Below are positions 43,888 to 45,083 of a DNA stretch of 51,892 bases, piece after piece. Position numbers and translations under genes: made by a program. Under the pieces are notes generated by a model. It searched no databases. It was not told the DNA's origin and saw nothing but the letters and a program-made list of their open reading frames with translations. How positions within the stretch are numbered: position 1 is the first letter of the stretch; every line of letters begins with the position of its first letter. This DNA is from Microbacterium sp. (GTDB lineage Bacteria; Actinomycetota; Actinomycetes; Actinomycetales; Microbacteriaceae), in the NCBI GenBank assembly GCA_002703245.1, contig NZTV01000046.1, forward strand, positions 1-51,892, read 5' to 3'.

Positions 43888-44010
43888 TCAACCCTGGCGG
43901 CCTTTGAAGCGGGGATTGAGTTTGTTGATGACGTAGACGCGACCGCGGCGACGGACGACCTGTGCCCCCGGCTGATTCTTGAGTGACTTGATCGATGCGC
44001 GGACCTTCAC
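43888..44010 (-). CDS. rpmJ2: Zinc-independent ribosomal protein L36 paralogue
   Basis: The 40-residue protein reads KVRASIKSLKNQPGAQVVRR then RGRVYVINKLNPRFKGRQG. It lacks all four zinc-ligand positions of standard L36 and matches the cysteine-free (YkgO/L36B) form that replaces the zinc form on ribosomes under zinc starvation. The GTG start lies 6 bases after TAAGGT (44017-44022), so the message is probably leaderless. The Zur-like palindrome (44024-44040) sits immediately upstream, consistent with zinc-dependent repression. Confidence 0.92.
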   Translation of the reverse strand: MKVRASIKSLKNQPGAQVVRRRGRVYVINKLNPRFKGRQG

Positions 44011-44023
44011 GCGAACACCTTAC

Positions 44024-44040
44024 TTGAGAATGATTTTCAA
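44024..44040. promoter_or_regulatory. Zur-box-like palindrome in a divergent promoter
   Basis: TTGAGAATGATTTTCAA is near-perfectly symmetric and differs at one base from the TGAAAATGATTTTCA Zur consensus core. To the left it abuts the rpmJ2 -10 box (44017-44022). To the right it overlaps the -35 TTGAGA (44024-44029) of the plus-strand promoter, whose -10 is TATGCT (44048-44053, spacing 18). A bound Zur dimer would cover both promoters. Confidence 0.85.
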
Positions 44041-44087
44041 TTCAGCTTATGCTTCAAGGGTTTCCCGCGCAATCGAGAGCGAGCGCC

Positions 44088-45083
44088 ATGCATCGAAGGA
44101 CCATCCTCACCGTCGGACTGTGCACCCCGGAACGCCGCCGCTACGCCGGCGAGATCTCCGCCGCGCTCGGACAACCGGTCGTGACGGCGAGCGCCGCCCC
44201 GCCCCGCCTGCGGGACCGACTCCTGCTCAGCGCCCTGGAGGCGGCCCGGAACGCCGGTGATGCGATCGTCGTCGACACCCCACCCGGCGTCGACCTCCCC
44301 GCCCTGCTCGACGCCGGCGACGGTGAGGTCGTGTGCGTCGTCGACGCCCGCCACATGCTCGACGATCTGCAGGGCAGCGCGCCGCTCGCGCCGCGCGAGC
44401 ACGCCCGGGACGACCGCGGGGACATCGGGGCACGGGCCCGCCACGCCGCGCACCTGATCGAGAGCGCGTCCGGTGTGGTGATCGTGGACTGGGAGGACAC
44501 GCCGACCGAGGACCTGTCGATGATGATGGCCATCGTCTCCCACCTGAACCCGGGGTGCCGCATCCGCCTCTCCCGCAACGCGGTCGAGGATCTGCGGGCC
44601 CTCGCGGCGGGTACGACGGCTCCGCCGTGGCGGGAGCGTGCGGGATGGGTCCATGCGCTCAACGGCGAGCACGCGCCGTTCATGCGCGACCCGCGCGTGA
44701 GCACTCTCCGCTACGAGCAGCTCCGCCCGTTCCAGCCCGCCCGCTTGATGCACGCGCTGGATCGGATCGACGCGGGCGTCTGCGGAACGGTCGTGAGGTC
44801 GGTCGGGTTCTGCCGCCTCGCGACACGCCCGGGTGTCCTGGCCCGCTGGGAGCAGGCCGGCTCGGCGATGTGGCTCGACCCGCTCGATGACGACGAAGGC
44901 TGGCGGGCGACCGTCCAGGAGATCGCCCTGACAGGGATCGACCTCGATGCCGCCGACCTGACGCGGCGGCTCGACGCCGCCGCACTCACCGATGCGGAGC
45001 TCGCCGCCGGCCCCGAGTCCTGGCTTCGAGGTGCGGATCCCCTGCCACCGTGGCCGGCGACGATCGACGAACCGGGCGCCTGA
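44088..45083 (+). CDS. CobW/COG0523-like protein lacking GTPase motifs
   Basis: This 331-residue protein follows the COG0523 zinc-chaperone plan but looks catalytically dead. The N-terminus TILTVGLCTPERRRY stands where GXXGXGKT should be, the CXCC site is SAAPP before RLRDRLLLSALE, and the NKXD region reads VVIVDWEDTPTEDLS. The Walker-B-like AIVVDTPPGVDLPALL and VCVVDARHMLDDL are recognisable. The C-terminal CobW_C domain is intact (STLRYEQLRPFQPARL, VVRSVGFCRLATRPG, WEQAGSAMWLDP). The Zur-like box and divergent zinc-free L36 imply expression in zinc deficiency. ATG 44088 was chosen because it follows GAGAGCGAG and the promoter; ATG 44049 lies inside the -10 box. Confidence 0.8.
   Translation: MHRRTILTVGLCTPERRRYAGEISAALGQPVVTASAAPPRLRDRLLLSALEAARNAGDAIVVDTPPGVDLPALLDAGDGEVVCVVDARHMLDDLQGSAPLAPREHARDDRGDIGARARHAAHLIESASGVVIVDWEDTPTEDLSMMMAIVSHLNPGCRIRLSRNAVEDLRALAAGTTAPPWRERAGWVHALNGEHAPFMRDPRVSTLRYEQLRPFQPARLMHALDRIDAGVCGTVVRSVGFCRLATRPGVLARWEQAGSAMWLDPLDDDEGWRATVQEIALTGIDLDAADLTRRLDAAALTDAELAAGPESWLRGADPLPPWPATIDEPGA

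Follow-up and report, generated by a model that had tools for sequence, protein, structure and literature searches.

A conserved cassette of a zinc-free ribosomal protein L36 and a COG0523-derived pseudo-GTPase at a predicted Zur operator in Microbacterium

Zur-controlled relatives in the COG0523 family are zinc chaperones. Pseudo-GTPases are already known as a kind within this group: Rv0106 is Zur-repressed and lacks both GTPase motifs, with CXSC present (Haas et al., PMC2770081; cited, like the other papers here, from excerpts of the text). Rv0106 and MSMEG_6069 are Mrf, the Mpy recruitment factor, a protein that brings Mpy to zinc-free ribosomes and, once zinc-bound, undergoes degradation by Clp (PMC13418864). 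The mrf gene lies within a Zur-induced cluster of genes for zinc-free ribosomal proteins, which in M. smegmatis are S14, S18, L28, L33, and L31 (PMC7174638). Further, RpmJ is reported among the Zur targets of a set of actinobacteria that includes Leifsonia xyli (PMC2823685). Here, we analyze a 51,892-nucleotide stretch (the window) of a Microbacterium sp. metagenome-assembled genome (MAG), in which a predicted Zur operator separates divergent genes for a type-B, zinc-free L36 (L36B, encoded by rpmJ2) and a COG0523-derived pseudo-GTPase. The two genes form a conserved cassette, and the zinc site kept by Mrf is absent from its pseudo-GTPase. We did not find the L36/pseudo-GTPase pairing described in the accessible excerpts of openly licensed (CC0/CC BY/CC BY-SA) PMC literature; an L36/COG0523 pairing may be drawn in figure 4 of PMC2823685. 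The features of the cassette, in window coordinates, are as follows.

43888-44010, minus strand: rpmJ2, type-B (zinc-free) ribosomal protein L36, 40 residues, GTG start; matches PF00444 and NF002021, no cysteine
44024-44053, plus strand: putative promoter-like TTGAGA-18-TATGCT overlapping the operator; one found by consensus scan against a shuffle mean of 0.0
44025-44039, no strand: predicted Zur operator TGAGAATGATTTTCA between the divergent rpmJ2 and pseudo-GTPase genes, from pattern scans and the published consensus
44091-45083, plus strand: COG0523-derived pseudo-GTPase, 330 residues; CobW_C above cut-off, 88 homologues
44118-44147, plus strand: former P-loop, now GLCTPERRRY (family consensus G-x-C-x-P-E-R), a Walker A replacement conserved in alignments
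44487-44498, plus strand: former NKXD position, now DWED, from alignment to intact GTPases and Mrf
44700-44981, plus strand: intact CobW_C domain; PF07683, 39.9 bits at these bases and 36.9 bits in the Pfam scan of the window protein (cut-off 22)

The two genes are found together or not at all within the genus, where genus and family membership is judged from contigs matching named records. The pseudo-GTPase is encoded in 45 of 149 Microbacterium genomes and type-B L36 in the same 45, with neither present in the other 104. Type-B L36 scores lie above 70 bits in 44 of these genomes and at 69.3 bits in G145, and the next matches, to zinc-type L36, reach about 54 bits. The 45 genomes hold 46 cassettes, since G026, which is counted in the Microbacterium set and carries the name Frigoribacterium in named records, has two, each of them paired. 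These two cassettes (L076 and L083) are diverged copies with their own L36 genes, which suggests transfer of the pair as a unit. With L36 located by tblastn, 46 of 47 loci (window included) show a divergent, adjacent L36; the lone locus without one, L087, encodes an intact GTPase. Similarly, L36 adjoins the pseudo-GTPase gene in 79 of 80 named loci, which are the best 80 of 122 relatives from a GTDB scan and overlap the genus set, so that the counts are not additive. They span Microbacterium, Leucobacter, Brachybacterium, Rothia, Nesterenkonia, Nocardia, Saccharopolyspora, and Arachnia, among others. The cassette of M. testaceum StLB037, a non-pathogenic laboratory strain, is L151. The sole named locus without a neighboring L36, L198 in Kocuria rhizophila TA68, has a Zur-like box.

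The genes flanking the cassette in the window are hardly shared: its TetR, GNAT, two low-molecular-weight phosphatase, and zinc-ribbon neighbors are all absent from the other 46 loci, three of which share its SDR neighbor, indicating that the L36/pseudo-GTPase pair is the conserved unit. The pseudo-GTPase is uncommon across the class Actinomycetes, as an even draw of 148 genomes contained full-length versions in only two (G000 and G229), both adjoining type-B L36.

The intergenic site TGAGAATGATTTTCA agrees at 14 of 15 bases with TGAAAATGATTTTCA, the consensus given for S. coelicolor Zur in PMC2823685, and has the 7-1-7 palindrome in a promoter region that characterizes actinobacterial Zur operators. 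A preliminary description of this DNA had noticed a Zur-like palindrome between the genes, and the site at 44025-44039 is indeed a near-consensus predicted operator. It is the sole zero-mismatch site for TGANAATNATTNTCA and for TGANAANNNTTNTCA in the 3.03-Mb, 84%-complete MAG. When mismatches are allowed, the MAG scan returns 22 sites per Zur-box pattern, compared with 11 for the reversed control, so weaker single Zur-like sites are often chance matches and prove little. TGANAANNNTTNTCA is exact in 42 of the 46 Microbacterium cassettes and has one mismatch in the other four, at a roughly constant position, and the upstream 460 bp of the 46 cassettes contain 42 TGANAANNNTTNTCA sites, where the frequency in the rest of these loci would predict 0.31. 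An exact Zur box lies within 450 bp in 67 of the 80 named loci.

In the MAG, a FUR-family gene closes a znuACB operon whose znuA is directly preceded by a one-mismatch box; a further one-mismatch box accompanies a second znuA. These two znuA-type loci are on contigs C45 and C46 of G000 (L286 and L287), the first being the znuACB operon. The FUR-family protein scores below the NCBIfam cut-off as Zur, and we therefore call its gene Zur by operon context only.

The rpmJ2 product is a type-B L36, scoring 79.1 bits against NCBIfam NF002021 (cut-off 70) and 69.4 bits against Pfam PF00444, with no cysteine among its 40 residues; it is the sole L36 copy detected in the incomplete MAG. An E. coli control also scores with the type-B model. 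For the divergent gene, the mechanical start of the open reading frame at 44049 leaves only 10 bp to the operator. Of the 47 genus-level matches, 43 start at residues 1 to 6 of the 330-residue form. Together these make the ATG at 44091 the likely start. CobW_C is the only Pfam domain above cut-off in this protein, and the cobW nucleotide-binding domain gives no Pfam match at E ≤ 1. Neither a motif search nor alignment finds Walker A, CxCC, or NKxD in the window protein, and the alignment shows that the entire switch-I/CXCC segment and the Walker B ESTG are missing as well. Thus, the preliminary description was right to call L36 zinc-free and to report loss of the P-loop, CXCC, and NKXD beside an intact CobW_C domain, and the losses extend further than it had claimed. 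A predicted structure has a COG0523-like fold with the two-domain arrangement of the G3E type. A phmmer search of PDB sequences returned two weak, unrelated matches only (E 0.048 and 0.64).

Of 88 homologues (E ≤ 1e-10, a set that counts the cluster of the window itself and some partial sequences), 87 share the losses of Walker A, CXCC, and NKXD; the preliminary description had proposed looking for such conservation in orthologues. Walker A is absent from all 80 named loci. The median ratio of nonsynonymous to synonymous substitution rates (dN/dS) is 0.19, indicating purifying selection, with some pairs representing the same locus under two ids. The shared losses and the low dN/dS lead us to reject simple decay, in line with the initial proposal.

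To place these losses in order, relatives across the family Microbacteriaceae are informative. Type-B L36 is present in 64 of 249 genomes, and 66 of its 67 loci were read, the window's own not being re-read. A COG0523-type gene stands beside L36 in 45 of the 66 (44 divergent, one tandem), and none is found within about 1.5 kb in the remaining 21, two of which lie at contig ends; the pseudo-GTPase is thus not required beside every L36B gene. One L36-adjacent homologue, L311 in G450, has an early in-frame stop and reads for 20 residues. Among the 44 readable L36-adjacent genes, Walker A is kept in three (L322, L352, and L336) and NKTD in two of these, whereas the CXCC segment is present in none; the CQYC of L304 belongs to an N-terminal overhang away from the zinc site. 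L322, L352, and L336 each have a one-mismatch Zur-like box in the intergenic gap and are candidates for zinc-free GTPases with such boxes.

The 73 L36-linked rows of a 99-row tree group together as one clade (support 99/95), and every one of them lacks the CXCC segment. This tree omits L311 for its early stop and the near-copies L312 and L332, and it uses four of eight Mrf and seven of 22 Mrf-like rows. The sequence of L331 lacks its N terminus. The P-loop bearers are confined to a 24-row subclade, and at least three Walker A changes are needed on the tree, gains and losses not being distinguished. A placement of L322 and L352 among the intact GTPases is marginally rejected (p 0.046). Selected rows, when aligned, grade from GLAGSGKS through SGLETSGRQ to GxCxPER; CXCC and Walker B are already missing from this series, and a P-loop remnant is visible in L320. 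Because L36-linked relatives keep a P-loop yet all lack the CXCC segment, loss appears to have been stepwise: judging from these sequences, disappearance of the zinc site probably preceded that of the GTP site, which is likely to have been lost more than once. The preliminary description had held that the three motifs were lost at once, which is probably wrong given the P-loops of L322, L352, and L336. It had also regarded intact P-loops at the same place in orthologues as evidence against its reading; these do occur in three of the 44 Microbacteriaceae genes in this slot, but in none of the window's 49-row subclade.

We compared this family with Mrf at the level of the class. Thirty Mrf or Mrf-like loci, drawn from 45 Mrf-model matches, contain no Walker A or NKxD, and all 30 carry C-x-x-C or C-x-C-C; seven of the 30 exceed the Mrf cut-off (NF047431, 375 bits). 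The neighbors of type-B L36 at 23 class-level loci are Mrf-like in seven (L275 in two pieces), a partial match in one more, of the window type in two, weak short matches in three, and none in ten. In the best trees, the window family is sister to Mrf and Mrf-like proteins, but a closer affiliation with intact GTPases is not rejected by an approximately unbiased (AU) test (p 0.36). A tree of CobW_C alone is unresolved, with AU p values of 0.44 and 0.48 for the C domain. The first tree, whose Mrf group includes L235 from below the Mrf cut-off, favored a single P-loop loss common to the window family and Mrf; we set this aside, as it is weakened by the AU test and by the P-loop-bearing L36-linked relatives.

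Another COG0523 relative is detected at E ≤ 1e-6 in five of the 45 Microbacterium carriers (G007, G026, G048, G057, and G080), and a single CobW_C gene is seen in the 84%-complete MAG of the window. With a second relative in only these five, the pseudo-GTPase is unlikely to be a helper of an intact paralogue. In G007, an intact ZigA-type GTPase (L088) has a Zur-like box at its gene start, and the same genome holds a cassette.

The best reading of the pseudo-GTPase is a putative GTP-independent ribosomal role. By analogy with Mrf, we tentatively favor an Mrf-type adaptor for L36B (zinc-starved) ribosomes that depends on neither GTP nor zinc. The predicted Zur operator would control the zinc-free L36 and the pseudo-GTPase together. 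As zinc falls, Zur would leave the operator and L36B would take the place of zinc-binding L36; the pseudo-GTPase, made alongside L36B, would act without GTP or zinc, with its CobW_C domain serving as the platform for binding on L36B ribosomes. There it would most plausibly recruit or hold a factor of the ribosome, for example the HPF of the MAG, in the way that Mrf recruits Mpy. The MAG has one HPF gene, which is compatible with an adaptor and does not favor one. As the pseudo-GTPase has no CXXC, it would escape the zinc-dependent Clp turnover of Mrf and be controlled at transcription alone.

The main rival to the adaptor is an assembly or exchange factor dedicated to L36B, which would escort it or help to swap it for zinc-binding L36 with no link to hibernation. 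The constancy of the partner, L36 in all 46 Microbacterium cassettes and in 79 of the 80 named loci compared with S14, S18, L28, L33, and L31 around mrf (PMC7174638), suits such a factor. We nevertheless consider it rather unlikely, because 21 of 66 Microbacteriaceae type-B L36 loci have no COG0523 neighbor. E. coli also matches the type-B L36 model and is not known to have such a COG0523 partner, which counts against this factor too.

Residual zinc handling, in which zinc would be bound through other residues (e.g., Cys12, Cys83, and Cys242) and stored, sensed, or handed over without GTP, would accord with what is generally known of Zur-controlled relatives as zinc chaperones and with the conservation of these three single cysteines in at least 90% of 38 homologues. 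It appears improbable given that the CXCC segment is missing from the whole L36-linked clade and that 78 of 80 named loci have no CxxC, the two CGFC matches lying elsewhere. The metal-binding decoy raised in the preliminary description finds no positive support here either, CXCC being missing and only the three single cysteines being conserved. A regulatory partner that tunes expression, for example via Zur or rpmJ2 translation, would fit the divergent layout with its shared operator; it is a doubtful candidate, since the protein has no nucleic-acid-binding domain above the Pfam cut-off (HTH_37, 11.9 versus 27 bits) and its predicted fold is COG0523-like. Decay of a gene retained only through linkage to rpmJ2 would be consistent with the stop in L311 and the P-loop remnant in L320 but is very improbable, as none of the 47 genus-level matches contains an in-frame stop, dN/dS is about 0.2 in both domains, and a new conserved G-x-C-x-P-E-R motif occupies the old P-loop.

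Other genes near the cassette include two adjoining low-molecular-weight phosphatase/arsenate-reductase-like genes just downstream (45105-46219, minus strand) and an ArsR-type helix-turn-helix fused to a third low-molecular-weight phosphatase-like domain (40768-41781, minus strand). A 411-residue protein (47031-48266, minus strand) has four CxxC stretches and looks zinc-ribbon-like by eye, with no Pfam match at E ≤ 0.001.

The role of Zur-induced COG0523 proteins and the purpose of CobW_C are largely open questions on which this cassette bears. One possible history, which we regard as somewhat unlikely, is that a second line of ribosome factors evolved independently: a Zur-controlled metallochaperone captured beside rpmJ2 would have given up its zinc site before its GTP site, repeatedly, so that CobW_C was left to do the work and would be the part that faces the ribosome in Zur-controlled COG0523 proteins generally. 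Since the natural series keeps CobW_C and the link to L36 while losing the zinc site and then the GTP site, the residual function could be assayed without GTPase or metal chemistry.

Among known systems, the ZigA-type zinc metallochaperone GTPases (NF038288), YjiA, and YciC share CobW_C and the overall fold with the window protein, whose best NCBIfam score is to ZigA (92.5 bits); this is far from the ZigA cut-off of 600, and unlike these proteins it has no Walker A, Walker B, CXCC, or NKXD. The C. glutamicum cg0794/cg0795 divergon resembles the cassette in that Zur controls a COG0523 gene and a divergent neighbor, but cg0794 is described as a P-loop GTPase, its partner is an oxidoreductase, and there are two operators (PMC2823685). 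Mrf (Rv0106/MSMEG_6069) is closest: both it and the window protein are COG0523 relatives under Zur control (predicted here), adjoin one or more genes for zinc-free ribosomal proteins, and have lost the GTPase motifs. Mrf differs in retaining a C-x-x-C zinc site, a segment missing altogether from the window family, and its cut-off of 375 bits is far above the 59.6 bits reached by the window protein. On this curated score and the zinc site, we do not file it as Mrf; if it is an adaptor, it would work in the manner of Mrf. The cassette allows a comparison to Mrf that is non-pathogenic and genetically simple, with one operator, two genes, and one ribosomal protein.
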